From: Methanomethylovorans sp.
GTDB lineage: Archaea > Halobacteriota > Methanosarcinia > Methanosarcinales > Methanosarcinaceae
Assembly: GCA_020854785.1 (NCBI GenBank)
Contig: JAHFZE010000188.1
Location: 1 to 14,030 of the forward strand
Reading direction: 5' to 3'
DNA length: 14,030 nt
How positions within the stretch are numbered: position 1 is the first letter of the stretch; every line of letters starts with the position of its first letter. The translations under genes and the position numbers were made by a program. The notes beneath the pieces were generated by a model. It was not told where the DNA came from and did not search any database. It saw only the letters and a list, made by a program, of their open reading frames with translations. Positions 461-13,752 of the stretch are shown in pieces.

Positions 461-2479
461 ATGTTGTTACATGGAGGCATGATTATTCAGGAAGATGGAA
501 CTCATGGCCCGGAAAAAGAGCCTGATGCAAAGGATGCCATGACAAAACTTAACCAATTGATAGCCTTGCGTTTTGATGATAGCTCAGGAAACATGGTCAA
601 AGACCCAGTTCTTCTTAAAGCTGTAGTTGAGCAGATCATTGCCTCACCAGAGAAAGAGACCATTGAGAGCACTATGGCTAATGCCGATATCAACAAAGAA
701 GTCAGCATTTCTCTTAATGATGCCGTTATCCTTCAACAGGGGAAGCTATCACATTTTCCGAATAAAGCCCCAGATCCTGAACAGGAATGGCAGAATAAAC
801 TGAACGAACTAGCCTCCACGAGTTTTGCGGAAATATCATACGAGTCCTGCGAACTAAAGCTGCAAGAACCTGAGTCTCTGAAGCTGCAGGCTATTTCTCA
901 CACTGTTCCTCTTTCTGCTTCCCATGCAGCTACAAAAACAGAGTCAAATACAACAGGCTTCGAGCCAGTTGTACGATCAGCAACTGGCCAACAAGAAAAT
1001 ACAGTATTGGTACAGGAAAAAGCTGTAACTGGACCTGCCCAGACAGAGAAAAAAGAAAGTTATGTTCCTATACATAAAGGGAGACAAAAAGAAACATCAG
1101 TTTCTGACACCGAAAAACAAATACAAACTTCAGGTAAGGTTACAACGGACGGTACAAGAGATATTGGCCGGAATACTTTGGGGACTGAGGATATTGTCAG
1201 CATAATTGAAGTCCTTGATTCCATAGAATCCGATATCAAGAAGAAAGAGCTTCCTAAAGATCGATCTATACGCATGGCGGGGTCCAAAAAGAACATTCCT
1301 GAGCAACAGACTGACAAGAATACAAAAATATCATCTTCTGATGCATTTGCACACAAGGTCACAAAAGGTGATACAGGGATAACGGCAAAAGTGGCTGTGC
1401 TCTATTCTGAAGCCCATGTCACGCATTCACCTAAAAACACCAATGTTCAGGACTTGGAGCGTCCTGAACGTCTTACGAGGGCTATGGATCATCTTCAACG
1501 CAGTGGGATATTTGGTGAGCGCTGTGATCTTGTCACCGATAAATATCAGGCTTCAGAAGAAGACCTTTTACTTGTCCATTCGAATGAATATGTCAGGTTC
1601 GTAAGGTCATACTCAGCTTCAGGAGGAGGTTTTCTTGGTGATAGTACCTATATGACGTCCAATACATTCGAAGTTGCGCAACTTGCCGTGGGCTCAGCCA
1701 TAAAGGCCGGAGAACTTGTGTTGTCAGGGCAATACGCTGCAGCAATGGTGATGATACGGCCTCCTGGTCACCATGCGGGTGTTGATAAATACAGGGGATT
1801 TTGCATTTTTAATAACGTGGCTGTTCTGGCCCGGTATCTGCAGAAGAAAAAAGGGCTGTCCAAAATAATGATCATTGACTGGGACGCTCATGCGGGCGAT
1901 GGCACTATGGAGATCTTCTACAATGATCCTACTGTAATGGTTGTATCCTTGCATCGTGATCCACACGATTTCTATCCTCGCAGAGGGTTCAGTTCCCAAA
2001 CAGGAGAAGGGCCTGGTTTAGGTTACACTGTTAACGTGGAAATGCCCATGGGAGCAGGAGATGAAGAATACGCTTTTGCTTTTGATGAATTAGTTATCCC
2101 TCTTTTGCATAGGTTCTCACCGGATTTTGTAATATGCAGCTGTGGGTTCGATGCCTATTTCAAGGAACAGCACATAAAACTGAATCTTACTTCTGCAGGT
2201 TATCACATGATGGCAAAGAAGATAATGTCCGTCATGAATGGGAACTTTGTGCTCGTAATGGAAGGTGGTTATCACAAGTTCAATGGTCATCTTACTCATG
2301 TGGTTATCAATTCGCTGCTTGGACTTCCAGATCCTGTTAACGATAAGCTTAAAACTACGGAGTATGAACGCAATCAGCAGAATTTGGTCCTTAAAGAGAC
2401 AGCAAAAAAGATCATCTATGTTAAGGATAAGTTAGGTATAAAGATCTTTAAAGAGGAAGAATGCGTAGCACAGGTGTGA
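461..2479 (+). CDS. Histone-deacetylase-family zinc hydrolase with long low-complexity N-terminal extension
   Basis: This 672-residue protein has two parts. Residues 1-308 are polar, rich in Glu, Lys, Ser and Thr, and resemble no domain I know; they are probably largely disordered. Residues 309 to about 640 form an HDAC/AcuC/APAH-fold domain. The active site looks complete: the His pair in RPPGHHAG (H437, H438), zinc ligands D475 and H477 in DWDAHAGDGT, a third ligand D564 in CGFDA, and the transition-state Tyr Y604 in MEGGY. The family removes acetyl or other acyl groups from lysines, polyamines or small amides; the substrate here cannot be read from sequence. The usual second His after the zinc-ligand His is Ala (A478). 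The start is uncertain: ATG 461 abuts the previous stop without a ribosome binding site, while in-frame ATGs at 479 (after GGAGG at 473-477, very close) and 539 are alternatives. The end overlaps the next gene by 19 bases. Confidence 0.9.
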   Translation: MLLHGGMIIQEDGTHGPEKEPDAKDAMTKLNQLIALRFDDSSGNMVKDPVLLKAVVEQIIASPEKETIESTMANADINKEVSISLNDAVILQQGKLSHFPNKAPDPEQEWQNKLNELASTSFAEISYESCELKLQEPESLKLQAISHTVPLSASHAATKTESNTTGFEPVVRSATGQQENTVLVQEKAVTGPAQTEKKESYVPIHKGRQKETSVSDTEKQIQTSGKVTTDGTRDIGRNTLGTEDIVSIIEVLDSIESDIKKKELPKDRSIRMAGSKKNIPEQQTDKNTKISSSDAFAHKVTKGDTGITAKVAVLYSEAHVTHSPKNTNVQDLERPERLTRAMDHLQRSGIFGERCDLVTDKYQASEEDLLLVHSNEYVRFVRSYSASGGGFLGDSTYMTSNTFEVAQLAVGSAIKAGELVLSGQYAAAMVMIRPPGHHAGVDKYRGFCIFNNVAVLARYLQKKKGLSKIMIIDWDAHAGDGTMEIFYNDPTVMVVSLHRDPHDFYPRRGFSSQTGEGPGLGYTVNVEMPMGAGDEEYAFAFDELVIPLLHRFSPDFVICSCGFDAYFKEQHIKLNLTSAGYHMMAKKIMSVMNGNFVLVMEGGYHKFNGHLTHVVINSLLGLPDPVNDKLKTTEYERNQQNLVLKETAKKIIYVKDKLGIKIFKEEECVAQV

Positions 2480-3525
2480 TCTACAATACTAATCACGAGC
2501 TACATGATTATATGCTGAAAGGTTTTCCAAGTCCGGAAAGCCCGGCAAGGTTACAGGATATCATGCAGCACTTCAAACATAACAATGTATTTGAAAATAA
2601 TAACTGCAAAGTGCTGATCCCCAACAGTGCTTCCTCAATGGACATTCTGCGTGTGCATACAGTGGATTATTTTTCTTTTGTACGGTCACATTCATCAACT
2701 GGTGGCGGATGGCTTGGCAATGATACTTACCTGTGTGAAGGTTCTCTTGAGGTATTGTTGCAGGCCGTCGGATCGGTGCTCGAAGCTGGCAAGGCTGTTG
2801 CAACGGGAAAATGTGACAATGCATTTGCTTTGGTAAGACCACCCGGTCATCATGCTTATGCAGATAGGCACAGTGGTTTCTGTGTGTTCAATAATGCTGC
2901 TATCCTTGCAAAGTATCTGCAGCAGGTCCAGTCCTGCTCAAAGATCGCTATTGTCAATATAGATGCCCATGCTTCGGACGGTACTCAGGATATATTCAAA
3001 GCAGATCCTTCCGTACTATGTATCTCTGTTCATCAGACCCCATCAGGTTTTTATCCGTTCAAGGGCTTTATTCGGGAAATGGGCCTTATGCCTGCCCTGG
3101 GGTACACATTGAACATGGAAATGCCGCAAGAGGCAGGTAACTTTGAATATTCGATCTTCTTCGAGCAGGTCGGCCTCAAGGTGCTGGAGCAGTTCGATCC
3201 GGATATGGTTATCCTGGAATGTGGTTTTGATTCTTACTACAAAGAAAAGCTTGCTAAGCTAAACCTCACACTTGATGGTTACTATGATGTGGTTTCCCGT
3301 ATCTGTGGCAGATGGCCAACCATTGCACTGCTGGAAGGAGGTTATCATGAGGATCTCGGCTTGCTGGCAGATGTTGTGGTCCAGGCATTAGCAGATAACA
3401 GGTATACTAAAGATGAGGTTGATCAGATGAATTTACTGGCTTCCCGGCAGAGTTCTTGCAGACGCATATTCGGTAACAAGCTGAATGAACTAAAGAGCCT
3501 GTTGTCATCCTATTGGGATCTTTAA
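2461..3525 (+). CDS. Histone-deacetylase-family zinc hydrolase, tandem paralogue
   Basis: This 354-residue protein consists almost entirely of an HDAC-fold domain clearly related to that of the preceding gene; both share a GGG(F/W)LG(D/N)xTY segment. The predicted active site is complete: H130 and H131 in RPPGHHA, zinc ligands D168 and H170 in NIDAHASDGT, D257 in CGFDS, and Y295 in LEGGY. It lacks the long N-terminal extension of its neighbour. The position after the zinc-ligand His is again Ala (A171), and the first Asp of the usual DxD is Asn (N166), while the metal-binding Asp is kept. The ATG is preceded by GAGG at 2453-2456 and lies inside the end of the upstream gene, which indicates coupled translation. 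A GNAT gene follows 20 bases later, so a deacylase and an acetyltransferase are probably made together. The substrate is unknown; lysine, polyamine and small-molecule deacetylation all remain possible. Confidence 0.9.
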   Translation: MRSTGVIYNTNHELHDYMLKGFPSPESPARLQDIMQHFKHNNVFENNNCKVLIPNSASSMDILRVHTVDYFSFVRSHSSTGGGWLGNDTYLCEGSLEVLLQAVGSVLEAGKAVATGKCDNAFALVRPPGHHAYADRHSGFCVFNNAAILAKYLQQVQSCSKIAIVNIDAHASDGTQDIFKADPSVLCISVHQTPSGFYPFKGFIREMGLMPALGYTLNMEMPQEAGNFEYSIFFEQVGLKVLEQFDPDMVILECGFDSYYKEKLAKLNLTLDGYYDVVSRICGRWPTIALLEGGYHEDLGLLADVVVQALADNRYTKDEVDQMNLLASRQSSCRRIFGNKLNELKSLLSSYWDL

Positions 3526-3545
3526 CATATCGATCAGGTGTTTAT

Positions 3546-4466
3546 ATGATAGAACTTGCTTACTATGCTGGTGGCTTAAGGTTCTCTAAGCTGGAATATT
3601 CATATGAGCTGGATAAGCTGAAAATAGGCAGATTTGATTATTTCAATAAACATCTGGGTATGAACGACTACATGGGTAACTTTCGCAGCTGGCTTAAAAG
3701 GCAATCTGTGACCCTTATTGTCGGAATAGATAATATCACTATCGTGGGTTGGGTAATGACAGAAAAATGGAAGCTGAATGCTAAAGATGGCCGTTCTGTC
3801 TATGTATTGAGAGGGATCGAGGTTTCGCCATCTATTGCGCGTAAAGGTATTGGTAGAACATTGTTCGCATTAAGCTTCAAGACCTGTTCCGGACATATGC
3901 TGACAAAGCCGGTGAACTCTGTAGCAAAGGCTTTTTTCCTGTCCATGGGTTTCCAGGAACCTGACAGGAATTGTCCGGTTGATCTTAGCAGCTATCCAGG
4001 TTATCTTTTTCTCCCCAAAGCTTACGAATTGCAGGACATCCCCCATGAACTCATAATGAGCAAAGGAGGAATAGTTGAATGCCAGAAGAATACTTCTTTA
4101 AAGGATATTTTCCGGCCTGACTTTACTTCGATCTCTATTCAGGATACTGAAGAGGTGCCCGCAGCAGAAGAGGGTATGCTCATAAGGAACATTGCACTGG
4201 ATAACATCGCCAAAGACGGACCAGGAACAGAAATTGATGATAATTGTGCAGGATGCTCCACTCTCCCCTCTGTTCCCGTGATCATGGACGCTGTGGACCG
4301 AGGCACCTCTAAAAGCAGAGAGTTCTTGAAAGATCACAAAATGATGACCTCATGCTGTTGTGGTGAGTACGTGACTCATAAATATGCAGTGTCAGGTAGC
4401 CCATCTGGTTTTCTTTTTGTATGCACTTCATGCGGAAAAGAAAGATATTTTCTGAAAGATCAATAG
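3546..4466 (+). CDS. GNAT-family N-acetyltransferase with C-terminal zinc-ribbon-like tail
   Basis: This is a 306-residue protein. Residues ~1-150 carry a GNAT-type fold: strand IVGWVMT, strand LRGIEVSPS, the acetyl-CoA pyrophosphate loop ARKGIGRTLFA (residues 98-108), and the closing AKAFFLSMGFQ helix-strand. The loop normally reads R/Q-x-x-G-x-G; here the first position is Ala (A98), so catalysis is likely but not certain. A linker of ~90 residues, containing a CxxC, leads to a Cys-rich end (C270-C272, then C293 and C296 in a CxxCG) that resembles a zinc ribbon, perhaps for binding protein or nucleic acid. The start at 3546 is chosen because AGGTG at 3536-3540 precedes it at good spacing; an ATG at 3513 would overlap the upstream gene and lacks such a site. 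It is the last gene of the deacetylase operon and resembles the GNAT encoded at 10168-10926, including the stretch after the GNAT core. Confidence 0.75.
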   Translation: MIELAYYAGGLRFSKLEYSYELDKLKIGRFDYFNKHLGMNDYMGNFRSWLKRQSVTLIVGIDNITIVGWVMTEKWKLNAKDGRSVYVLRGIEVSPSIARKGIGRTLFALSFKTCSGHMLTKPVNSVAKAFFLSMGFQEPDRNCPVDLSSYPGYLFLPKAYELQDIPHELIMSKGGIVECQKNTSLKDIFRPDFTSISIQDTEEVPAAEEGMLIRNIALDNIAKDGPGTEIDDNCAGCSTLPSVPVIMDAVDRGTSKSREFLKDHKMMTSCCCGEYVTHKYAVSGSPSGFLFVCTSCGKERYFLKDQ

Positions 4467-4529: not shown

Positions 4530-4558
4530 GAACAGAAAGCATTTTATTGGTTTAATTC

Positions 4559-4566
4559 TATATATT
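4559..4566 (+). promoter_or_regulatory. TATA box for the CheF-like/KaiC operon
   Basis: TATATATT lies in an A/T-rich stretch about 40 bases before the ATG at 4606. A start of transcription some 25 bases downstream (near 4588) would give a leader of about 17 bases carrying the AGGT ribosome binding site at 4597-4600. Neighbouring A/T runs make the exact box uncertain. Confidence 0.55.
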
Positions 4567-4605
4567 ATATTATTATAATTTAAAACAACTATATGTAGGT
4601 AAAAC

Positions 4606-5193
4606 ATGGCACAGGAGCAGGGTATTGCAAAAGTAGATCTTAATTATATCTTCAAAGCTGTCATTATGGGGACTTCTCTCTACTCTGATAACTGGGAGAA
4701 AGGAGTACTTTATCTCACTAATCTGAACCTGTGGTTCTCTGAAGGCAAAGGCTGGTTCACTATTCCACTCAAGAACATAACAATGGTGGGTAGGGAGGTA
4801 CCTAATACGATCCGCATGAAAGCACAGCGTGCCATAGGTACAACCCACGTGCTGATAATCGACTATCTCCAGGCTTCCAGTGTCAGTGCAGATTCATATG
4901 CCTCGTCAGTGGCATTATTGGGCGGTAATGAAGTAGTGGTGAACACCTTGAAAGCTTATTTGCAGCCGATGTGTGGAACTCCTCCCAGGTCTCAGTCCCT
5001 TTCAGACATTGACAAGAAACTGCTTTACATGCTCTATACAGGGATCAATGATATGCTGAAACTTTCCTTCCTCATAGGAACGGATGCAGAAACCCTTGCC
5101 GGGAGCTTCAAGAATCTCAGGGATCAGGGACTCTGTGATACGATGGGAAAACTGACACAAGAAGGTATGACAAAGATCAAGGAGCTGATGTAA
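4606..5193 (+). CDS. Short CheF-like protein (archaeal taxis adaptor family, DUF439-like)
   Basis: This 195-residue protein appears to have two parts. Residues ~14-118 form a beta-rich, PH/GRAM-like domain; a KGVLYLTNLNLWF strand pair, WFTIPLKNITMVGRE and the long strand HVLIIDYL are typical of archaeal CheF proteins. Residues ~131-195 look like a winged helix (DIDKKLLYMLYTG, then AETLAGSFKNLRDQGLC and a short wing). In haloarchaea CheF connects the Che system to the archaellum switch; the haloarchaeal proteins are longer, to my knowledge about 280-300 residues with a repeated N-terminal domain, so this is a half-length relative. No CheA, CheY or archaellum gene is visible here, so a motility role is not shown and an adaptor role within the local KaiC module is an alternative. 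The start follows AGGT at 4597-4600. It is the first gene of a + strand cluster reaching 10926. Confidence 0.6.
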   Translation: MAQEQGIAKVDLNYIFKAVIMGTSLYSDNWEKGVLYLTNLNLWFSEGKGWFTIPLKNITMVGREVPNTIRMKAQRAIGTTHVLIIDYLQASSVSADSYASSVALLGGNEVVVNTLKAYLQPMCGTPPRSQSLSDIDKKLLYMLYTGINDMLKLSFLIGTDAETLAGSFKNLRDQGLCDTMGKLTQEGMTKIKELM

Positions 5194-5197
5194 TGGT

Positions 5198-5219
5198 CTT
5201 TTTTCTTCTATTTTTCTTT
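5198..5219 (+). terminator. Pyrimidine-rich tract between CheF-like and V4R genes
   Basis: T6 at 5199-5204, T5 at 5211-5215 and T3 at 5217-5219 fill the short gap before the next ribosome binding site. Such tracts can cause partial termination in archaea, so this may lower expression of the downstream genes relative to the CheF-like gene. Confidence 0.3.
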
Positions 5220-5220
5220 A

Positions 5221-5227
5221 GGAGGTG
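5221..5227 (+). promoter_or_regulatory. Strong ribosome binding site GGAGGTG of the V4R gene
   Basis: GGAGGTG matches the archaeal anti-Shine-Dalgarno sequence and lies six bases before ATG 5234. It excludes the in-frame GTG at 5225, which lies inside the site. Confidence 0.75.
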
Positions 5228-5233
5228 TCTGAT

Positions 5234-6226
5234 ATGAGCGATATACCACCAGGTTTGCCTCCTTTTATGGGCTCACCGGCAGGTGGTCCTCCACCCATGG
5301 CCTCGGGTGGCAGTTTTGCTCAGTCTCTTGGTGCTTTTGGTACCATGTTAAAGATACAGGAAACAATTAGTACCAGATTCCCTATTTCAAAAGTACCCTG
5401 GAGAGACACCAGGGTTTTCCTGCGCGCACATAGCATCGAGTCGATCAGATCCACTCCCTTGTACGGTTTTATGATGCGCTTGTTCAAGGATGTGGGCTTA
5501 GGAGACATGCAGCTTGTAGGATATGCACCAATGCATTATGTGTTCGCAGTTCCAGGATGCCCTGTTTGTAACATCTATCCTGCTCTTCATAACCAGAAAG
5601 TGTGTGTAGCTACCACGGATGCTTTGCACCGGTTCTTCAAAGAAGAACTAGAGCTGGAATGTATGGTCGAGGAAACAGAATGTGTAAAAGATAGTGGAGC
5701 AGTTTGCAAGTTCAAGGTAGCATTGCAGCCTATTTCTGCTTATCAGGTCCTCCTTGATGACAATGACAGATTGATCCTTTCCGGTAAAAGACCTCCGGCA
5801 ATGGAACAGCCTGAACTTGTCAGCAGGGTAGAGGTACTTACTATATATAAACTTCTTGACCGTGGGAAGCTTTCTGACATAGGTGAAGCTTACATGCAAT
5901 TTGCAGGCAGCATGCCGGTGAAAGAAAAAATATTCGATCCTCCATGGAAGACGGCCGAGGAGCTCAGATCCATCATTTCCAAACATGGTGCCTTTGGTGC
6001 TGCCTTTGGGGAAATGGCTACAAAAGTTCAGTCTGTCCAACACTCCGCTTTAGAGATGCCTTCATCTCCCCCTGCATCATCTACACCGTCTACATCGTCT
6101 GTTCCTTCTTTATCATCCGCTCCTGCTGCACCTTCGGTTCAGGAGCAGGCATCGAAGATCAAAGATGAGGCAAAGAATGCAGGAAGCTTTGCTGAGCTCA
6201 TAGCAAAGATGAAAAAACAAAACTGA
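5234..6226 (+). CDS. V4R-domain (4-vinyl reductase-like) ligand-binding sensor protein
   Basis: This 330-residue protein starts with a Pro/Gly-rich tract (residues ~1-30). The following ~130 residues end in a pattern typical of V4R domains: a hydrophobic strand leading to CPVC (C109, C112), a helix TTDALHRFFKEEL, then EETECVKDSGAVCKFKV with C150 and C158. V4R domains bind small hydrophobic ligands or metals in sensors and tetrapyrrole enzymes; the four cysteines here could hold zinc or a heme or corrinoid-type ligand, which is inference. Residues ~190-260 may be a helical or winged-helix-like part. A Ser/Pro/Ala linker (~276-300) ends in an amphipathic helix (SFAELIAKMKKQ) that could dock on a partner. 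No membrane segment is seen, so it is probably cytoplasmic. It lies in a row with the Sm-like, KaiC-like and roadblock genes and is the best candidate for the input sensor. Confidence 0.65.
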   Translation: MSDIPPGLPPFMGSPAGGPPPMASGGSFAQSLGAFGTMLKIQETISTRFPISKVPWRDTRVFLRAHSIESIRSTPLYGFMMRLFKDVGLGDMQLVGYAPMHYVFAVPGCPVCNIYPALHNQKVCVATTDALHRFFKEELELECMVEETECVKDSGAVCKFKVALQPISAYQVLLDDNDRLILSGKRPPAMEQPELVSRVEVLTIYKLLDRGKLSDIGEAYMQFAGSMPVKEKIFDPPWKTAEELRSIISKHGAFGAAFGEMATKVQSVQHSALEMPSSPPASSTPSTSSVPSLSSAPAAPSVQEQASKIKDEAKNAGSFAELIAKMKKQN

Positions 6227-6235
6227 GGATTTAAA

Positions 6236-6577
6236 ATGGTTTGTGATTCCCTGAATCTTAAATGTGACCTGATCTCCCGATTTACGGGTGAGATGGTGCG
6301 TGTCATTACTGGCAGTTCTCATTATAGAGGAGAATGCCTGATGGTAGACATAGGATCAAATGATGTCTTTCTCAAAGATGTTGTACGTAAGATCGATTCC
6401 GGCTGGACCAAAGTAACTGATCTTATGTTCATAAGCGGATCTTCCGTTGAGGCAATTTATGTTGAATTAGGTTATCCGTTCGAGGTAAACGAATCTCTTA
6501 TCCTCTCAGTGGAGAACGGACTGATCAATCATAGTTCTGATCTTGAAAATGATCATGAGCTGGAGGGACTTCTATGA
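6236..6577 (+). CDS. Sm-like (LSm-fold) small protein of the KaiC operon
   Basis: This 113-residue protein follows GAGG at 6225-6228. Residues ~12-77 match the Sm pattern position by position: FTGEMVRV (G18, V21, V23) as strands 1-2, YRG (30-32), D38, N42 and LKD (46-48) as the Sm1 motif, then MFISGSSVEAIYV (64-76) as the Sm2 motif. The usual Arg of the Sm2 IRG is Ser here, which would alter the classic uridine pocket of RNA-binding Sm rings. It may therefore form a ring or act as a protein-binding module and not bind U-rich RNA; that is inference. Residues 80-113 form an acidic tail. The stop overlaps the KaiC-like start by four bases (ATGA), so translation is coupled and the two proteins are likely partners. 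The alternative is another small beta-barrel such as an SH3-like fold. Confidence 0.55.
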   Translation: MVCDSLNLKCDLISRFTGEMVRVITGSSHYRGECLMVDIGSNDVFLKDVVRKIDSGWTKVTDLMFISGSSVEAIYVELGYPFEVNESLILSVENGLINHSSDLENDHELEGLL

Positions 6578-7653
6578 GCGAAGAGGTGAGGATCCCCACA
6601 GGCATTGCGGGCCTGGACAGGGTGATAGAAGGTGGTGTGCGCGATAAGACCACATTGCTAGTCGTAGGTTCAAGTGGTACTGGGAAATCGACTTTTGCAA
6701 TGCAGTATCTTGCTTATGGGCTTGAGCATGGGGAAAATGCTCTTTATGTTAGCATGGAAGAGCCAGCAGAACAGATCCTCAGGGAAGCCCGCATGCTAGG
6801 TTTCAATTTAGATAGATACTACAACAAAGAACTTTTCTTCTTCCACTCTAAAGGAAAGGATTTCGTTAAGCTGGTAGACGAGCAGTTACCAGCTCTTGTG
6901 GAGGCTAATAAGGATTATGCTGTTAAGACACGGGTGGTCATTGACCCTCTTACTCCACTTATCTGGGCCGTTCAGGATAAGCAGGAACAGCGGGATATCA
7001 TCACCAAGCTGTTCTACACTTTAAAGCAGCTTGGTCCGGTACTCATCACTACAGAGGAACATGCATCTCCGGGAGAAACGGTAGGTGAGGATGTGCTTAT
7101 CCCTATCTATATGTCCGATGGCGCAGTCCATCTTTCCTACAGGCCTATAGGCGGTGCTTTTAACCGGGCTCTTGAGATAATTAAAATGCGTGCTACGAGA
7201 CACGGGGAAGAGGTCTATCCATATATATTTGTCCGTGGAATAGGTGTTGTTGTCAGGACCACTCCTCTTGTTTCAGCTGAAGATGCAAATAAATATGATG
7301 ATATGTTCGACAAAGCGATCAGAACGGCAGCTGACCTCGGTGCTTCTGAAAGCCTGCTTGAACGCATAGAATATGTGAAGAATAACTGGGCATATTCCTT
7401 CTCACCCAAGGAAACTCTTCAGATATTCTTTGAATCCCAGGGACTTACTGGTTCCATTAGAAAAGAGGACGTTGAAAGACGTAAACAGGAAGCTCAGTAC
7501 ATAGCCGAGCACGCAGGCGAGCAGTCTGCTTTCCTTGCAGATGTTGAAAAGACACTTGTTGGCCAAGAGCAGATATCCAGTGTCACAAAACAGAAGAATG
7601 AAGGTCTTATTGATATCGAGGAGCTCAAAGAACTTGAAGAGCTTGTGAAATAA
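6574..7653 (+). CDS. KaiC-like RecA-superfamily ATPase
   Basis: This is a single-domain KaiC relative of 359 residues. It opens with the family signature IPTGIAGLDRVIEGGV. It then has a complete Walker A (GSSGTGKST, residues 32-40), the catalytic Glu pair in SMEEP (E62, E63), Walker B ending in VVIDP (D124), and EIIKMRATRH, typical of the KaiC core end (~205-214). The core ends near residue 235. The remaining ~125 residues are mostly helical, with an acidic end, and resemble no named domain; they may bind partners. Archaeal KaiC-like ATPases have been proposed from comparative genomics to be hubs of signalling networks. Here the gene is flanked by V4R, Sm-like and roadblock genes, consistent with that. 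GGAGG at 6562-6566 precedes the start, which overlaps the preceding stop. All nucleotide-binding residues that I can identify are intact, so ATP hydrolysis is expected. Confidence 0.88.
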   Translation: MSEEVRIPTGIAGLDRVIEGGVRDKTTLLVVGSSGTGKSTFAMQYLAYGLEHGENALYVSMEEPAEQILREARMLGFNLDRYYNKELFFFHSKGKDFVKLVDEQLPALVEANKDYAVKTRVVIDPLTPLIWAVQDKQEQRDIITKLFYTLKQLGPVLITTEEHASPGETVGEDVLIPIYMSDGAVHLSYRPIGGAFNRALEIIKMRATRHGEEVYPYIFVRGIGVVVRTTPLVSAEDANKYDDMFDKAIRTAADLGASESLLERIEYVKNNWAYSFSPKETLQIFFESQGLTGSIRKEDVERRKQEAQYIAEHAGEQSAFLADVEKTLVGQEQISSVTKQKNEGLIDIEELKELEELVK

Positions 7654-7673
7654 GCATATCTGATGTGGTCCCG

Positions 7674-8444
7674 ATGGCAGTGAAAAAAACAAAAGAGGAT
7701 CTTGAGGACGTATCTCTGCTAAAGTTCGCTCTGGTTTCCCAGTTGAAGAGAACTTACGAAACAAGTGATGTGGATGTATTGCTGTTCGCAGGAGTAGATG
7801 GAAAGATATATGCTTCATATATTCCAGACAGTATTGGTCCTAAGATATTTGAACTGACAAATCTCATCACCAGTAATTTATTGCACATCAGCCAGCAGCT
7901 TTCAATGGGCCTGCAGCAGTCAGTTATAGAATATGAGTTTGGTACTGTTATTTTCTCTTCTGTGGGTAGGGGGGCATTACTTATCTCATTGTTCACTACC
8001 AAAGTAGACCTTTCTCAGAACATGCGAAAAATAGAGATCACAAGGGAAGTTATGCAGCATCTTTTCGAGCAGCGGCCGATGACCGAGGCTCAGCTCTCCA
8101 CATATCCAGCAGATGTTTCCCGGGAACTGAGGGAACTTGCAAAATGCGTGTTCAATGAAATGTACACACAATCTTCTGAATATAAAAAGAACATGGAGGT
8201 CCTTAGCGACATAAAAAAGAAGATAACAGGTGTTATGGGGCGCGGAGAGGTTGATCAGGTGCTAGCTATGGCCTTTAATGAAATCGCATCTTCTCCAAAA
8301 TGGATGACAGAAAAACTCTGGCCCCTATTACTGGAAATGGTGATCAATGACCAGATACGTCCTCTTCATGGCGATTACATTGCCGACGTTTGTATGGCAG
8401 AGTGGATACCTGATATCAAACGTAAGCTTGAGTCTTTTGTATAA
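7674..8444 (+). CDS. Roadblock/LC7 (longin-like) domain protein
   Basis: This is a 256-residue protein. Residues ~15-130 show the roadblock order: a helix (LLKFALVSQLKRTY), a strand pair DVDVLLFAGVDGKIYASYI with the typical central DG, a long helix (ELTNLITSNLLHISQQL), three strands (SVIEYEFGTVIFSSVGRGALLISLF, 83-107) and a final helix. Residues 131-256 are predicted helical and resemble no named domain. Roadblock domains dimerise and regulate small GTPases (MglB type) or act as scaffolds; no Ras-like GTPase gene is seen in this window, so the partner is probably the KaiC-like ATPase upstream or the MinD-like ATPase at 12281-13021. The start is placed at ATG 7674; GTG 7665 is an in-frame alternative, and the ribosome binding site is weak in either case. 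The gene lies 20 bases after the KaiC-like gene. Confidence 0.65.
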   Translation: MAVKKTKEDLEDVSLLKFALVSQLKRTYETSDVDVLLFAGVDGKIYASYIPDSIGPKIFELTNLITSNLLHISQQLSMGLQQSVIEYEFGTVIFSSVGRGALLISLFTTKVDLSQNMRKIEITREVMQHLFEQRPMTEAQLSTYPADVSRELRELAKCVFNEMYTQSSEYKKNMEVLSDIKKKITGVMGRGEVDQVLAMAFNEIASSPKWMTEKLWPLLLEMVINDQIRPLHGDYIADVCMAEWIPDIKRKLESFV

Positions 8445-8460
8445 AAACGGATGTGGAAGC

Positions 8461-10128
8461 ATGGTGAAAGTCACTGATTTGAAAAACAAACTGGAAGAAG
8501 CTTCATGTTGTATTGATTCATACGATGATAATGGTGCAGGCTGTCAGCCTGATTACGAGACCTCAGTTACAGATATTCCGGCCTCATCTCCTTCATCAGT
8601 ACAGGCAGATGTATCTGAGACAACTGATGGTTGTGATCTATCTGAAAAGGTTGCTGAATATGCATCTGAAGACAGATCACAGGTCATTTATGATGATGCA
8701 GCTTTTCAGCTTATTCATAAAAAACTTGCTTATTTTGAAACCAGATTCTCTGAAGTACAGCTCAAGATCGATGAGGGACTTTCACAGAATTCTGGCTCTT
8801 TAAATGCTTTGAAAAATGAGATGTCCTCTCTTGCTTCAAATAAGGAATTGGCTAAATTGAGAACAGAATTCGATTCGTTGCACAAAAAACTAAACAGAGT
8901 GGTAAAAGACGAAGACGCCTTCAACAGTCAATCCCTTAATGCTTCAAAAGTCCCTCCAGATGTGCTCCAGATCACCTACTCAAAAACTTTGAATGACCTT
9001 TACAGAGCAATCTTAGGTATTTACGGTGACAGTGAAGCAGAAGCAATAGTTAATTCGATCAGGGACAGCGTTCGAGGGTTCTGTGCAGGTGTGGATTTTT
9101 TTCGGTTCGAAGAGGGTACTTTTGTTGTAAAGGAGCTTTCAGATGCAATCCAGTCCAGGCTGGTTTCCACAAAGCAGATACATGGTACTTATATAGAGAT
9201 ATTTAAAAGACTGGCAGAATATGCGCCAAACTATGAGTCCCAAGATTTCCGCTCTTTTGTGGAAACAGGCAGCAGGGAATATTCAGTTGAGAAAATAGCC
9301 GAACATAATCGTCGTCTTAAGGATCTGGAATGTCTTGTGAACAAATACTTGCAGGAGTTGAACAATGTTTCAGAGAACATGGGATTTGTGGCACAGTTAC
9401 AGAACCAGCAACTTGATGAGATAAAAGCTAAATCAGAGGATATTATCAATATCAGGGACCAGATCTCAAGCCTTTCGCATGCTGTAAACTTACATACGCG
9501 TCTTTTCAAGAAACTCAATAGTAATTTGGAGAATATACGCTCACAGCTAGAATTAATTGAGTCGGGTTCAGACAACAAAGTAGTGGCACAGGATATTCTG
9601 TGCATATCTTCCGAGATTTCCCAGGCTGTACCCTCACAGACCGAACTTGCAACTCTGGCTGCATCTTTGAACGATCTGAGAGAACAAACATCATTGATGG
9701 TATCAGAGCTGTATTCGCGTGTAGATTCGGTTTTCTCGGATGTTCGTGGTATTGAAAGCGTTTCAAAAGAAGTGTCTTTATTGCAAGAACAACTTCAGAA
9801 GCTACGCTTGGACATGCAGGAAGATGTGATGTATATAGATCTGGGTGACATTGAAGACCTTACAATCTATGAAGATGAACAAGGTTTTCTTGAAAGTGAT
9901 ATGTGTATTGACCTAGATGACCTGCACGAGTTCACAGGAACAGTTATAAACACATTGATGGATGTTGGTCCTTCTACATTCAAACAACTAAAAAAAGCAT
10001 TGTCTTCCTCTAAAGTGAAACTGGATGAAGAGGAACTAATGGAGATAATGGATGAGGCTTTATCTTTGGGTTCGGTCATTTTACAGAGAAAAGGAAGATA
10101 CCTGTATTACAGTGCTAGCAATGAGTAG
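8461..10128 (+). CDS. Long coiled-coil protein with C-terminal winged-helix domain
   Basis: This is a 555-residue, mostly helical, acidic protein without membrane segments. Residues ~10-75 are low-complexity. Heptad-like stretches run from about 85 to 145 and from about 280 to 455 (for example QLQNQQLDEIKAKSEDI and SLLQEQLQKLRLDM), separated by a helical part. An Asp/Glu-rich patch (~465-490) precedes a winged-helix-like domain at 491-552 (TGTVINTLMDVGPSTFKQLKKAL, then a recognition helix and a KGRYLYYS wing). The architecture recalls a cytoplasmic scaffold or signal transducer that ends in a DNA- or protein-binding module; no MCP signalling tip is recognised. The start at ATG 8461 is chosen because it follows the upstream stop by 16 bases, with a short GGA nearby; the frame is open further upstream inside the roadblock gene but has no better site. 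Its position suggests a structural partner of the KaiC/roadblock pair. Confidence 0.75.
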   Translation: MVKVTDLKNKLEEASCCIDSYDDNGAGCQPDYETSVTDIPASSPSSVQADVSETTDGCDLSEKVAEYASEDRSQVIYDDAAFQLIHKKLAYFETRFSEVQLKIDEGLSQNSGSLNALKNEMSSLASNKELAKLRTEFDSLHKKLNRVVKDEDAFNSQSLNASKVPPDVLQITYSKTLNDLYRAILGIYGDSEAEAIVNSIRDSVRGFCAGVDFFRFEEGTFVVKELSDAIQSRLVSTKQIHGTYIEIFKRLAEYAPNYESQDFRSFVETGSREYSVEKIAEHNRRLKDLECLVNKYLQELNNVSENMGFVAQLQNQQLDEIKAKSEDIINIRDQISSLSHAVNLHTRLFKKLNSNLENIRSQLELIESGSDNKVVAQDILCISSEISQAVPSQTELATLAASLNDLREQTSLMVSELYSRVDSVFSDVRGIESVSKEVSLLQEQLQKLRLDMQEDVMYIDLGDIEDLTIYEDEQGFLESDMCIDLDDLHEFTGTVINTLMDVGPSTFKQLKKALSSSKVKLDEEELMEIMDEALSLGSVILQRKGRYLYYSASNE

Positions 10129-10167
10129 CGGGTGCTCTATTACAACATATTCGGTGGAGATATTATA

Positions 10168-10926
10168 ATGCAGGAAATGGAAAAGATCCATCAGGCTGGC
10201 AACATATCTTATGCTCTTCTTGTATCATCAGATGCAGTTGACGATCTTAATATAGATGTAGGAACAGTTGGCTTTGAGGGTTTCAGTTATTTTCATCAGA
10301 AATTTGGAATGCCTTATACGTTCCTGCTCAAGAGGTCCATTGAATCGGGGCATTTTCTGTTCGTATCCATAGCTGAGAATGATAAGCTCATAGGATTTGC
10401 AAGATTTGAGAAACTGGAAGAGCACACAGAAAAAGAGATCAAAGGGAAGATGAATATTGTCAATCCTTCTTTATTTCTGTTGCGTAGTATGGAAGTTCAT
10501 TCTTCTTTCCGCAATTGTGGGATCGGCCGGGTCTTGTTCTCAACTGCTGTACACTATCTTCAGGGTAATGTTCTCACAGTTCCAGACAATAAGGAAGCTG
10601 CAAACTTCTTTAGAAAAAAGCTTGGTTTCACCGAGATCACAGATGCTGTTGGAAATTACAAACAAAGGTATGAAGGGCACCTGATGCTCGCATATCCCAA
10701 AGCTGTTAGTCTATGGCACGAGATAGCAGCTAAATATCCTAGGATCGTGTATCCTGAGTTGGTAGACCTATATGAATCATTAAAATTTCGTCATAACATG
10801 GGTAAGGCAATATCCTGTAATGATGTTAGCAGGTTTGAGGTTTTGCTCTCAGAGTGTAACGGAATGCTAGCCTATGTAATGGAAACTGAAATGCACCGTG
10901 TGCTCATCGAGTTGCGCAGAGGGTGA
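10168..10926 (+). CDS. GNAT-family N-acetyltransferase, relative of the one at 3546-4466
   Basis: This 252-residue protein has a GNAT core. Strand KLIGFARFE (~73-81) and the strand before the loop (LLRSMEVHSSF) lead into a full acetyl-CoA loop RNCGIGRVLF (R115, G118, G120), followed by NKEAANFFRKKLGF, the usual closing helix and strand. After the core, residues ~170-252 resemble the post-core part of the first GNAT (EGHLMLAYPKAVSLWHEI versus a similar PGYLFLPKAYELQDIPHEL segment), but there is no Cys-rich tail. The start at 10168 is chosen because GGTGGAGA at 10153-10160 lies seven bases upstream; the frame is open back to 10132 without such a site. The acetyl acceptor is unknown. It is the last gene of the KaiC operon and gives that operon its own acetyltransferase. 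Confidence 0.75.
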   Translation: MQEMEKIHQAGNISYALLVSSDAVDDLNIDVGTVGFEGFSYFHQKFGMPYTFLLKRSIESGHFLFVSIAENDKLIGFARFEKLEEHTEKEIKGKMNIVNPSLFLLRSMEVHSSFRNCGIGRVLFSTAVHYLQGNVLTVPDNKEAANFFRKKLGFTEITDAVGNYKQRYEGHLMLAYPKAVSLWHEIAAKYPRIVYPELVDLYESLKFRHNMGKAISCNDVSRFEVLLSECNGMLAYVMETEMHRVLIELRRG

Positions 10927-10996: not shown

Positions 10997-11713
10997 TTAC
11001 GAAATCTCTATATCTGGCAGGTTCTTGGACGCAACCGAAGATCCGTTGAATGATAGTTCAAGATCATGTTTTCCGGCAAAAAAACCTCTTCCTCTTGATT
11101 TTATTACTCGAAGGTATCGCCGCTCTTCATTGCTTCTTTGATCCCTATCTCCAAGTTCGATCACCACATCCGAAAGATGACTTAAGATACTGTTACTGAT
11201 CTCACTCGCTGTTAGATCTGCTGTTACCACAAGGATCGTATTTGAAGCTTCAAACGCCCTGAACAAATTTACACAGAAACTTCTTTTTTCTAAAGGTAGC
11301 AATTCTCTACCATCCTCAAAGGATGGTGAAATGCACAGTAACAATGTTGCAGGATCAATGACCACCCTGTCAGGATTATCCTGTGCGAGGGTATGAAAGT
11401 ACTTAAGTGTTGCATAATCTCCTTTTGTAAGGATCTCTCTATCCAGTTCAAGGAGTTTTAGGTTCCCGCATTTGAGAACTTCATCATCAAAGAATGAGTA
11501 GTTCTGTGCGATTTCCAGCAATTTGTTCACGGGTTCGGACAATACGGTGATATAAACACACTTTTCACCAGCCTTTGCAGCTTTGAACAGTGAATGTAAG
11601 CATGTAACGGTACGTCCGCTTCCAGTGGGCCCTGCTATCAGTATACTTGAGCGTTGCATAAGACCACCGTGAAGTATAGCATCCAGATTGGGTATGTATG
11701 TGGGAGATAGCAT
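10997..11713 (-). CDS. KaiC-like RecA-superfamily ATPase with altered P-loop (GxxGxGRT)
   Basis: This is a 238-residue single RecA domain. The start YIPNLDAILHGGL matches the KaiC entry motif. Walker A reads GPTGSGRTV (residues 28-36) with Arg in place of the universal Lys (R34). The catalytic Glu pair is changed to Ser-Glu (S59, E60) in VLSEP. Walker B, VVIDP, is present (D120), and a VIKSRGRG segment at ~203-210 corresponds to the end of the core. Nucleotide binding may be weak or the protein may be regulatory; Arg at this position usually impairs hydrolysis, but this has to be measured. The start is supported by AGGTG on the - strand at 11718-11722, four bases before the ATG. It converges on the GNAT gene and shares the divergent intergenic region at 11714-11864 with the winged-helix gene. 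Confidence 0.75.
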   Translation of the reverse strand: MLSPTYIPNLDAILHGGLMQRSSILIAGPTGSGRTVTCLHSLFKAAKAGEKCVYITVLSEPVNKLLEIAQNYSFFDDEVLKCGNLKLLELDREILTKGDYATLKYFHTLAQDNPDRVVIDPATLLLCISPSFEDGRELLPLEKRSFCVNLFRAFEASNTILVVTADLTASEISNSILSHLSDVVIELGDRDQRSNEERRYLRVIKSRGRGFFAGKHDLELSFNGSSVASKNLPDIEIS

Positions 11714-11864: not shown

Positions 11865-12284
11865 ATGTTGATCATCATGCCTGTACCAGAAATTGATATT
11901 AATATTATTGCTTTGCTGAACGATCTTGATGATCGCTTAAGGCAGCTGGAGTCAAGAGTTGCAGAAATTGAAATGAGATCTTCTCCACCGATAGATGATA
12001 AAATGGCTATGTTCCTCACAGTGCCTGATTCTATTCGCAAGTCGCTTTTTGCCGTATCAAGTCTGATCTCATGCAATGCGGATGAAGTAAGTGAGATAAC
12101 GGGTCGCCACAGGTCTATTGAGAACAAATACCTCAATGAGCTATACAGATCAGGATGGTTAAAAAGGGAACGAAAAGGTAAGAAGATCTTCTACTCTCTA
12201 AAAAAGAGATTAGATGCCGAGAGGCATGAATGTGAGTCTGTGGTGGAAGAAATAGAGAGTAAGCTAGATCAGTTATTGGGGTGA
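11865..12284 (+). CDS. Small winged-helix (ArsR-like) protein flanked by coiled coils
   Basis: This is a 139-residue protein. Residues ~12-38 form a short coiled coil (LNDLDDRLRQLESRVAEIEM). Residues ~52-112 form a winged helix: helix IRKSLFAVSSLI, then ADEVSEITGRHRSIENKYLNEL as the HTH, then LKRERKGKKIFYSL as the wing. The tail (113-139) is helical, acidic and probably coiled. It is likely a dimeric DNA-binding regulator, although in this family wings can also mediate protein contacts. ATG 11865 has no ribosome binding site and may be leaderless; ATG 11877 is an in-frame alternative. The stop overlaps the MinD-like start by four bases, so the two proteins are made together and probably work together. 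The inverted repeat upstream would be a natural autoregulatory site, which is inference. Confidence 0.7.
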   Translation: MLIIMPVPEIDINIIALLNDLDDRLRQLESRVAEIEMRSSPPIDDKMAMFLTVPDSIRKSLFAVSSLISCNADEVSEITGRHRSIENKYLNELYRSGWLKRERKGKKIFYSLKKRLDAERHECESVVEEIESKLDQLLG

Positions 12285-13021
12285 AAAAAGTGCTGCTGAG
12301 TTTCCATTCATATAAAGGTGGTACAGGAAAAACGACCTTTGTGGGCAATCTGGGTGTCCATCTTGCTCAACAGGGTCAGAACATATGTATCATTGATACA
12401 GATGTGAACGGTCCGGGTCTGCATTCACTTTTTGATATTCAGTTCTCTGCCACACTGGTAGATTTCTTGCGGGATGAATGCAAGGTCAATGAGATCATAT
12501 ACAAACCATATAGGGATTTGGGTCTCTATATTATTCCATCTAAAGCCTGTGAAGAAGATATTACCTCAATGTTCAGTTCTCCAGGTGAAGCTAAAGACAA
12601 AATGCTTGAGATCATTAAGTTCCTAAAGAGGCAGTTGCAGGTGGACCATGTGCTCTTTGATTGCAGCCCCGGTATTAATAAATCCAGTTTACTAACTATG
12701 AATATAGCTGACAGGGCGACTATTGTTTCTACCATAGATGTGCAGGATATAAGAGGAACTTATATTCTGTCCAATATGTCTTCCAAGCTTGGTACTAAAG
12801 CTAACCTGCTTTTCAACAGAACTCCTAAAGATAAATGTGATGAGATCAATTGCATAGTTGCAGAGTTCAGCAAAAAACTGGGTACTTCACTTCTTGGCTC
12901 ACTTACTTTTGATGAGACAGTGGCCCGTACATGGTCAAGGAAACTGGTGATAATAGAGGAACAGGATTGCGACTATTGTCAGCAGCTAAGTAGCATTGCA
13001 ACGAGATTACTGATATCCTGA
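12281..13021 (+). CDS. MinD/ParA-family ATPase
   Basis: This 246-residue protein belongs to the deviant-Walker-A group of P-loop ATPases. It has SYKGGTGKTT with the signature Lys K12 and the P-loop Lys K17, IIDTDVNGPGL (D39, D41) as the A' motif, and HVLFDCSPG (D127) as Walker B. Family members cycle between ATP-bound dimers on a surface and free monomers, and so position DNA, cell-division proteins, chemoreceptor arrays or archaella. A C-terminal CxxC (C230, C233) is unusual for MinD and might bind metal. No strong membrane-targeting helix is visible at the end, so cargo may be a protein complex or DNA and not the membrane. It starts with GTG within the stop of the winged-helix gene (GTGA overlap). 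A ParA-like ATPase with a coiled-coil DNA-binding-fold partner resembles a partition pair, but no other partition feature is seen. It ends two bases from the convergent pseudo-KaiC gene. Confidence 0.85.
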   Translation: MKKVLLSFHSYKGGTGKTTFVGNLGVHLAQQGQNICIIDTDVNGPGLHSLFDIQFSATLVDFLRDECKVNEIIYKPYRDLGLYIIPSKACEEDITSMFSSPGEAKDKMLEIIKFLKRQLQVDHVLFDCSPGINKSSLLTMNIADRATIVSTIDVQDIRGTYILSNMSSKLGTKANLLFNRTPKDKCDEINCIVAEFSKKLGTSLLGSLTFDETVARTWSRKLVIIEEQDCDYCQQLSSIATRLLIS

Positions 13022-13023
13022 CC

Positions 13024-13752
13024 CTATGATCTCTTATATTCTTCTATATGTTCATGGACGATCTTGTCCAGTTCTTTTCTCTCTTCCATACTGAGACTGA
13101 ATATTTCCTTTACTTTTTTCAGGTCGGTGCTCACAGCAGGCTTTAAAACCAGTCTGCCATTTTCTAAAGCATATTGTATGTCATCCTTGCTTTTTTTCGG
13201 CCCAAACTGGATCGCATCTTCTGTTACATAAAGGACTGTGTCGAATACAGTATGTAGAAGTTTCTCCGTTTCTGTGTCGAAAATATTATGGGCGACGGTG
13301 CATATTAATGTTCCCTGTTTATCTCTCACGCGGGAGGAAAGCAAGTCAAGGAAACGCAGAAATGGGACCTTATTATGGCGCCATCGCAGAAATGCCAGAT
13401 CCTCAAGAAATAGTAACTGCCTTGGTTGTATTTTAGATTCTATTTGCATCAATAGTTCTGTCATATCCGTACAAGTGACGCCACCTGAAGAGTATTCTGA
13501 TGAATTTTCATAATTTGGTGCAAACGCATTATCTAAAATATGGTTACAACAGAATTCATTGTATGGTCCCCTGTCTTGTTCTGTAAAGAAGATCATGGAC
13601 ATTGGTACGCCAGTGTTTTCTACAAATGAAGCCACCATGCGGTATACCAGTTCGGACATCCTGGCCTGCGCTCCATATGTGAACAGTATGGCATGACCCT
13701 CTATCAGATCAAACAGGTCTGTTGCCACATTTTCACCAGTAATCTCGGTCAT
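13024..13752 (-). CDS. RecA/KaiC-like protein lacking a P-loop (probable pseudo-ATPase)
   Basis: This is a 242-residue protein. Its order of elements follows a KaiC-like core. A strand AILFTYG enters a loop where Walker A should be (GAQARMSEL, residues 27-35) with no GK(S/T). A helix then leads to the strand MSMIFFTEQD (51-60), where KaiC has its Glu pair. QLLFLEDLAFL (112-122) sits at the Walker B position, and GTLICTVAH (147-155) corresponds to a following core strand. Residues ~180-242 are helical and basic-acidic. Homology to KaiC is inferred from this pattern and is not certain. If correct, it is a catalytically dead partner that may bind an active KaiC-like or MinD-like ATPase. An AGGGGA ribosome binding site lies four bases before the ATG. 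It is convergent with the MinD-like gene and divergent from the gene at the right edge. Confidence 0.6.
   Translation of the reverse strand: MTEITGENVATDLFDLIEGHAILFTYGAQARMSELVYRMVASFVENTGVPMSMIFFTEQDRGPYNEFCCNHILDNAFAPNYENSSEYSSGGVTCTDMTELLMQIESKIQPRQLLFLEDLAFLRWRHNKVPFLRFLDLLSSRVRDKQGTLICTVAHNIFDTETEKLLHTVFDTVLYVTEDAIQFGPKKSKDDIQYALENGRLVLKPAVSTDLKKVKEIFSLSMEERKELDKIVHEHIEEYKRS

Follow-up and report, generated by a model that had tools for sequence, protein, structure and literature searches.

A Methanosarcinaceae gene cluster with a shortened CheF and a KaiC-like ATPase that probably couples chemotaxis to the archaellum

Introduction

In archaea, the general connection from CheY to the motor is attributed to CheF. 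The canonical protein (PF04283, arCOG02394; PDB 7ovp, 7od9) is composed of two PH domains and a C-terminal domain; the isolated C-terminal domain is sufficient for binding phosphorylated CheY (CheY-P) in Methanococcus, and ArlCDE, an assembly described as six-fold symmetric, is the presumed docking site of the PH domains (PMC9126983). Here, we describe a cluster of seven open reading frames at positions 4606-10926 of a 14,030-nucleotide stretch (positions 1-14,030 of contig JAHFZE010000188.1, hereafter the window) from a Methanomethylovorans sp. genome (G000; 2.06 Mb, 76.5% complete; genomes, loci and genera carry our handles G, L and g). All seven lie on the same strand with small gaps between them, and the first encodes a shortened CheF (mini-CheF), followed by a V4R-domain protein, an Sm-like protein, a KaiC-like ATPase, a roadblock protein, a coiled-coil protein and a GNAT acetyltransferase. 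The cluster is likely a Methanosarcinaceae-specific module that couples chemotaxis to the archaellum, and probably directs swimming by a route not described before.

The che2 regions of Methanosarcina were reported to be unique among archaeal che regions in lacking CheF, with the question of whether they influence motility, and by what route, left unanswered (Schlesner et al., 2009; PMC2666748). KaiC-family and roadblock genes have been noted near archaeal type IV pilus and archaellum loci (Makarova, 2016; PMC4858521). The present cluster shares this placement of both protein types; in the parts of that survey drawn on here, neither this gene set nor a replacement of CheF is described. KaiC-REC fusions, known to be confined to six Methanosarcinaceae genera according to the excerpt cited (PMC5847659), are distinct from the seven-gene cluster.

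A shortened CheF

In the window, mini-CheF matches the Pfam CheF-arch model with an E value of 0.0017 and 18.6 bits, below the curated cut-off of 25 bits. Profile comparison gives a firmer result, as hhalign aligns residues 26-189 of mini-CheF with residues 105-258 of a profile built from ten canonical CheF proteins of Methanosarcinaceae genomes (E 1.1e-10). Additionally, one pair of mini-CheF and canonical CheF proteins is matched by BLASTP (E 1e-12, 25% identity), and the mini-CheF profile matches the C-terminal domain of Pyrococcus CheF (7ovp, residues 247-332; E 0.011). The alignment begins only at CheF residue 93-105 and mini-CheF is 195 residues in length, compared with about 266 for the canonical protein, so that the full pair of N-terminal PH domains is not present. 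Combined with the published domain layout (PMC9126983), this alignment provides good support for a protein that retains the second PH domain (PH2) and the CheY-binding C-terminal domain without the first (PH1). Mini-CheF and CheF would thus have these two domains in common, and both occur with che and archaellum genes. They differ in that mini-CheF belongs to a cluster of seven genes, KaiC and roadblock among them, that is mostly distant from the che cluster.

Distribution in relation to CheF, CheA and ArlH

Among 111 Methanosarcinaceae genomes, 39 carry the cluster (the roadblock gene in 37, mini-cheF in 38) and 17 carry canonical CheF, with no genome carrying both. CheA was found in 37 of the 39 cluster genomes, the remaining two being 72-73% complete. 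The same pattern is seen in genomes with an archaellum ATPase, as ArlH exceeds its cut-off in 67 genomes, 53 with CheA and 14 without. The 53 comprise 36 with the cluster, 16 with canonical CheF, none with both, and a single genome (G176, 60% complete) with neither. Conversely, the cluster is absent from 12 of the 14 ArlH-positive genomes without CheA, ten of these 12 being at least 90% complete, and the two that do have it are 72 and 73% complete. One example is G131, a 99% complete genome of the Methanolobus-type genus g11, which has ArlH and gave no match for CheA, roadblock, mini-CheF or HDAC. Because ArlH-positive genomes without CheA mostly lack the cluster, its distribution tracks chemotaxis rather than the archaellum as such.

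The accompanying che system

Thirteen CheA proteins, in a tree rooted at midpoint only, show a 100/100 split between three that adjoin canonical CheF (che1) and ten others, six of them encoded in cluster genomes and four belonging to the che2 type (three from g13, one from g5). CheA of the Methanosarcina che2 system groups with that of the cluster genomes, and the cluster accompanies relatives of this system in other genera. The che clusters of four cluster genomes (L174, L175, L176 and L097; genes named partly by Pfam, partly by eye) contain no canonical CheF. In G142, the che genes (CheY, CheB, CheA, CheR and CheD; L174) are separate from the locus of a full arl operon (L177; arlCDE, F, G, H, I and J, with ArlF below its cut-off).

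Three che2-type regions (L222, L223 and L224) encode CheY, CheB, CheA and CheD, with a CheR-like gene in L223 and L224 (by eye), and have no CheF or KaiC cluster within the 20 kb inspected. Outside che loci, CheF-like proteins of 360-414 residues are encoded beside a separate KaiC-like gene (L104:8548-12223, L106:7567-10873, L107:6867-10169 and L109:8005-11543), and at L104 and L109 a PAS/DUF835 or response-regulator protein adjoins. Strong DUF835 domains occur beside other CheF-like/KaiC pairs, and the window encodes a DUF835-like protein in its downstream flank. Given these four further loci, the association of CheF-like with KaiC-like proteins is a recurring one.

Conservation and genomic neighbourhood

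An earlier note, made from the window alone, had proposed that the seven genes form one conserved signalling cluster, to be given up if the gene order were found in a single genome. Synteny in 24 of the 25 loci recovered by the KaiC scan bears out the proposal; the other locus, L033 (Nitrososphaerales, 30% identity), lies outside the syntenic set. Among the 24, mini-cheF is present in 23, the roadblock gene in 23, and gnatB 3' of the coiled-coil gene in 21. In whole-genome searches, matches to the roadblock profile turn up in 37 of the 237 class genomes, spread over 5 of 39 genera and confined to Methanosarcinaceae, and in 27 of 392 genomes in a phylum sample, again exclusively Methanosarcinaceae. 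The cluster occurs in Methanomethylovorans, Methanolobus, Methanosalsum, Methanohalobium and one more genus, and partially in one case from a sixth; genus assignments of the G genomes follow from matches to named contigs and from genome features. Of the named genomes among these loci, a Methanomethylovorans metagenome-assembled genome (MAG) is closest to the window, its KaiC being 96% identical. Another MAG, named Methanococcoides (EBM-47; L011), has a cluster KaiC 92% identical to the window's, like Methanomethylovorans, and is probably misnamed. The note's statement that no characterised system has this set also stands for the literature searched, in which no description was found; a 2017 paper on archaeal KaiC hubs fell outside that search and may show the neighbourhood.

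By a strict motif, archaellin genes lie upstream of the cluster in 15 of the 24 loci. Two of these genes, in G142, were confirmed as Arch_flagellin by Pfam, and the count misses at least one gene (L112:11250-12326, a Pfam archaellin). The other nine loci mostly have little upstream DNA, and L031 has several kb without archaellin. In two Methanosalsum-type genomes, G149 and G147, the cluster is also found near flaC/D/E and che genes. The order in G149 is flaD/E, two other proteins, flaC+D/E, archaellins, two other proteins, HDAC, GNAT, the cluster without gnatB, and then MCP, CheW, CheY, CheB, CheA, CheC, CheR, CheC-like and CheD, in a single direction except for a few minus-strand genes (CheY, CheB, CheR and CheD named by eye).

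The cluster of G147 falls into two blocks. The mini-cheF and sm genes, whose products share 60% identity with mini-CheF of the window and 49% identity with the Sm protein of L029, respectively, adjoin an archaellin gene, and divergent flaD/E and flaC+D/E genes are no more than about 1.5 kb away. The v4r-kaiC-rb-cc block is followed on the same strand by a 200-residue gene, cheY, cheB, cheR, a CheC-like gene and cheD. This separation, together with the genome G141, which retains the remainder of the cluster without mini-cheF, is what would be expected if only mini-CheF served chemotaxis, and the KaiC, roadblock, coiled-coil, V4R and GNAT proteins formed a separate unit on the same transcript that regulates archaellin expression or polar assembly. 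A KaiC-family protein, CirA, is indeed described as influencing motility gene expression in Haloferax (PMC13286277, in the part cited). However, the detached block of G147 adjoins cheY-B-R-C-D, and G131, with ArlH and no CheA match, has neither a roadblock nor a mini-CheF match, indicating that the set follows chemotaxis rather than the archaellum. On this balance, such a division of labour is somewhat unlikely, and a single module coupling chemotaxis to the archaellum is preferred.

Other proteins of the cluster

The cluster proteins were compared in alignments that each included the window sequence, drawn from 18 of 24 loci for KaiC, 21 of 23 for mini-CheF, 20 of 23 for roadblock, 20 of 23 for Sm, 20 of 24 for V4R and 15 of 19 for the coiled coil; near relatives and truncated or odd-length calls were excluded without a fixed rule. 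The V4R protein is likely a divergent member of its family, as it matches Pfam V4R (E 1.7e-5, 25.3 bits against a cut-off of 31) and the V4R part of NCBIfam MsvR (1.2e-5, sub-cut-off), and an alignment of 21 shows five of its cysteines to be invariant and its C-terminal tail (SF..L..KMK) to be conserved. Matches of the Sm-like protein are weak yet consistent (SmD3 PDB profile, 5.9e-4; Pfam LSM in 3 of 21 sequences).

In the KaiC-like ATPase, the P-loop GSSGTGKST, EE 62-63 and D124 are invariant in 19 sequences and the C-terminal tail is conserved; these correspond to the P-loop, catalytic Glu pair and Walker B Asp of KaiC, and so the residues expected of the KaiC superfamily are all present. 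The protein has one KaiC domain (residues 7-227), not duplicated as in circadian KaiC. It resembles the archaellum motor ATPase ArlH in this single domain and in its archaellum context, but scores far below the NCBIfam ArlH cut-off (54.9 against 215 bits), and the genome has a true ArlH gene at another locus. The second KaiC-like protein of the window was also considered as ArlH and ruled out (20.1 against 215 bits).

The roadblock protein has the roadblock fold, with no match to the Pfam roadblock model, and differs from MglB/Roadblock3 in its additional helical C-terminal domain. In the coiled-coil protein, a central block and a C-terminal block are conserved, the latter with an invariant KGRY (alignment of 16); profile searches gave no solid family match, and homology to ArlD/E found no Pfam match, no direct profile-profile comparison having been made. 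The folds proposed in the earlier note hold for the CheF-like, V4R, KaiC, roadblock and GNAT proteins and probably for the Sm-like protein, and the DNA-binding fold ascribed to the coiled-coil protein does not. Its description of the operon as KaiC-centred likewise gives way. The CheF-like gene is the informative member, because the pathway is recognised by the exclusion of canonical CheF, the presence of CheA in the same genomes, and archaellin and che genes close by.

The coiled-coil gene of G142 (L227:4200-6525) and the HDAC gene of G149 (L096:14412-15901) are each called as two overlapping frames, which suggests a frameshift or sequencing error.

Linked genes and upstream elements

Two HDAC-family genes and a second GNAT gene lie directly upstream of the cluster (461-4466). 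A close HDAC homologue (E 2.3e-78 or better, hdacB query) is found in 38 of the 39 cluster genomes and in none of the 72 other genomes of the family; the only cluster genome without it, G184, is represented by a short contig. This co-distribution may be mere linkage. CheY acetylation occurs in bacteria, and an acetylation input to cluster proteins or CheY is plausible here.

Downstream, a TrmB-like gene is paired with a ParA/MinD gene (11865-13021), the latter conserved in most g1 and g11 genomes. In other systems, the poles are organised by Roadblock/MglB and ParA/MinD proteins, and with the ParA gene 1.4 kb downstream of the cluster, the roadblock, coiled-coil, KaiC and ParA/MinD proteins might together place the motor and receptor arrays at the pole. 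At E 1e-30, however, ParA has no match in g3, g9, g12, G142 and G125, and matches three g14 genomes without roadblock. Because its distribution differs from that of the cluster, ParA/MinD was ruled out as a core component. Furthermore, no cluster protein matches a Pfam GTPase, and polar positioning leaves the exclusion of canonical CheF unexplained, which makes it an unlikely function. Finally, a general stress or redox signalling hub in an incidental neighbourhood, with no part in motility, would suit the V4R/MsvR-like domain and the pairing of 360-414-residue CheF-like proteins with other KaiC-like genes outside che loci, but is highly improbable given CheA co-occurrence, CheF exclusion, and nearby archaellin and che genes.

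Coordinates are collected in Table 1, in which the starts of three genes (roadblock 7674, coiled coil 8461, GNAT B 10168) were shifted after comparison with orthologues. Upstream of mini-cheF in 21 loci and the window, elements resembling those of the window's putative promoter region are present in most (by eye), and L029 is without them. In most loci, an AT palindrome (TATAATTATA-like; window 4566-4583) follows the TATA-like box ahead of the mini-cheF start, and is possibly an operator. Archaellin genes share a conserved upstream box of their own, unlike the mini-cheF upstream region, and no motif common to the mini-cheF upstream region and those of archaellin, some che and one arlCDE genes was evident (both by eye). 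The window contains no RNA family over its gathering score and no tRNA.

Table 1. Features of the window
Feature	Position	Strand	Basis and remarks
HDAC-family deacetylase A with N-terminal extension (linked)	461..2479	+	Pfam Hist_deacetyl 4e-87
HDAC-family deacetylase B (linked)	2461..3525	+	Pfam Hist_deacetyl 2.2e-77
GNAT acetyltransferase A (linked), cysteine-rich C-terminus	3546..4466	+	Pfam Acetyltransf_1 1.9e-5; cysteines by eye
Putative promoter region	4531..4583	+	AACAGAA-type box, then TATA-like box, then AT palindrome (TATAATTATA-like); promoter function inferred
Mini-CheF, 195 aa	4606..5193	+	PH-like domain matching CheF PH2, CheF C-terminal domain; without CheF PH1
V4R-domain protein	5225..6226	+	start GTG 5225 or ATG 5234; Pfam V4R, NCBIfam MsvR, both sub-cut-off
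Sm/LSM-like small-barrel protein, 113 aa	6236..6577	+	PDB profile SmD3; Pfam LSM
Single-domain KaiC-like ATPase	6574..7653	+	Pfam KaiC 2e-45; PDB KaiC profiles down to E 7.9e-45
Roadblock/LC7 domain (residues ~10-136) and helical C-terminal domain (~120 residues)	7674..8444	+	
Coiled-coil protein	8461..10128	+	alignment of 16; without solid family match
GNAT acetyltransferase B	10168..10926	+	Pfam Acetyltransf_1 9.4e-11
Second KaiC-like protein (flanking)	10997..11713	-	Pfam KaiC 2.5e-21
TrmB-like winged-helix protein (flanking)	11865..12284	+	Pfam TrmB 7.2e-4, sub-cut-off
ParA/MinD-type ATPase (flanking, separable)	12281..13021	+	Pfam AAA_31 1.4e-16
DUF835-like protein (downstream flank)	13027-13752		E 2.2e-4, sub-cut-off

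Discussion

Mini-CheF is homologous to CheF, the cluster is syntenic and lies near archaellum and che genes, and it excludes canonical CheF and co-occurs with CheA. The CheF part of a module coupling chemotaxis to the archaellum is thereby well supported, while the roles of the other genes, including complex formation, KaiC function, V4R input and acetylation, are what we infer from linkage. In the proposed mechanism, the single CheA found per genome would phosphorylate CheY, and CheY-P would bind the C-terminal domain of mini-CheF. The remaining PH-like domain and its partners (Sm-like barrel, KaiC-like ATPase, roadblock dimer and coiled coil) would dock on the ArlCDE switch ring and so alter rotation. 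By binding and hydrolysing ATP, the KaiC-like protein, which is related to ArlH, would set the state of this platform, the V4R protein would supply a redox or ligand input, and the linked GNAT and HDAC enzymes may tune a cluster protein or CheY through acetylation.

Several observations weigh against this reading. Linkage by itself cannot assign roles to the other six genes; PH1 is missing from mini-CheF, though canonical CheF is thought to dock via its PH domains; and binding of CheY-P and ArlCDE by mini-CheF is a prediction from sequence. CheA and roadblock genes are at least 138 kb apart in 12 of the 13 cluster genomes with both on one contig. G141, a 99% complete, CheA-positive genome without canonical CheF, has the roadblock gene and most of KaiC without mini-cheF. 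This locus (L102:11988-13260 of a single-contig genome) lacks the beginning of v4r as well as mini-cheF, and the KaiC match begins only at residue 25. The likeness to Methanosarcina che2 is also limited, in that 21 CheA genomes of g5 and the Methanosarcina-type g13, mostly che2-only, have neither CheF nor the cluster; in 11 of these the ArlH is weaker (193-213 bits), in nine no strong ArlH is found, and the last is G176.

The exclusion of canonical CheF has its own apparent exceptions to consider, as four cluster genomes (G136-G139) encode a protein of about 400 residues over the Pfam CheF cut-off (27-28.5 bits). Canonical CheF concealed in cluster genomes was sought with PF04283 and a family-built profile; the latter gave no match to these proteins, which are counted as paralogues. 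Two CheF matches in G146 were dropped before the count of 17, one at 3.2e-4 (78 residues with an internal stop) and one at 9.0e-4, sub-cut-off. Fisher p values of 5e-4 and 4e-6 overstate the case because genomes of one genus are not independent, and weight is placed on the pattern itself instead.

KaiC proteins assemble as hexamers, and with a six-fold ArlCDE, a KaiC ring could therefore sit on the switch, although this is speculation. In a fuller and rather doubtful form of the coupling mechanism, the KaiC-like hexamer, roadblock dimer and coiled coil would make up an ATP-driven adaptor stage on the ArlCDE ring, substituting for PH1 of CheF and integrating CheY-P, ATP state, a V4R redox or ligand signal and reversible acetylation (two GNATs, two HDACs) before motor switching. 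If true, KaiC-type ATPases would act directly in motor output, besides ArlH.

The cluster is relevant to the question of how a che system lacking CheF might act on the motor, since relatives of che2 in other genera go with a truncated CheF inside a KaiC/roadblock gene cluster. Motor coupling in these methanogens thus becomes testable, with roles in archaellum switching predicted for the KaiC-like and roadblock proteins.

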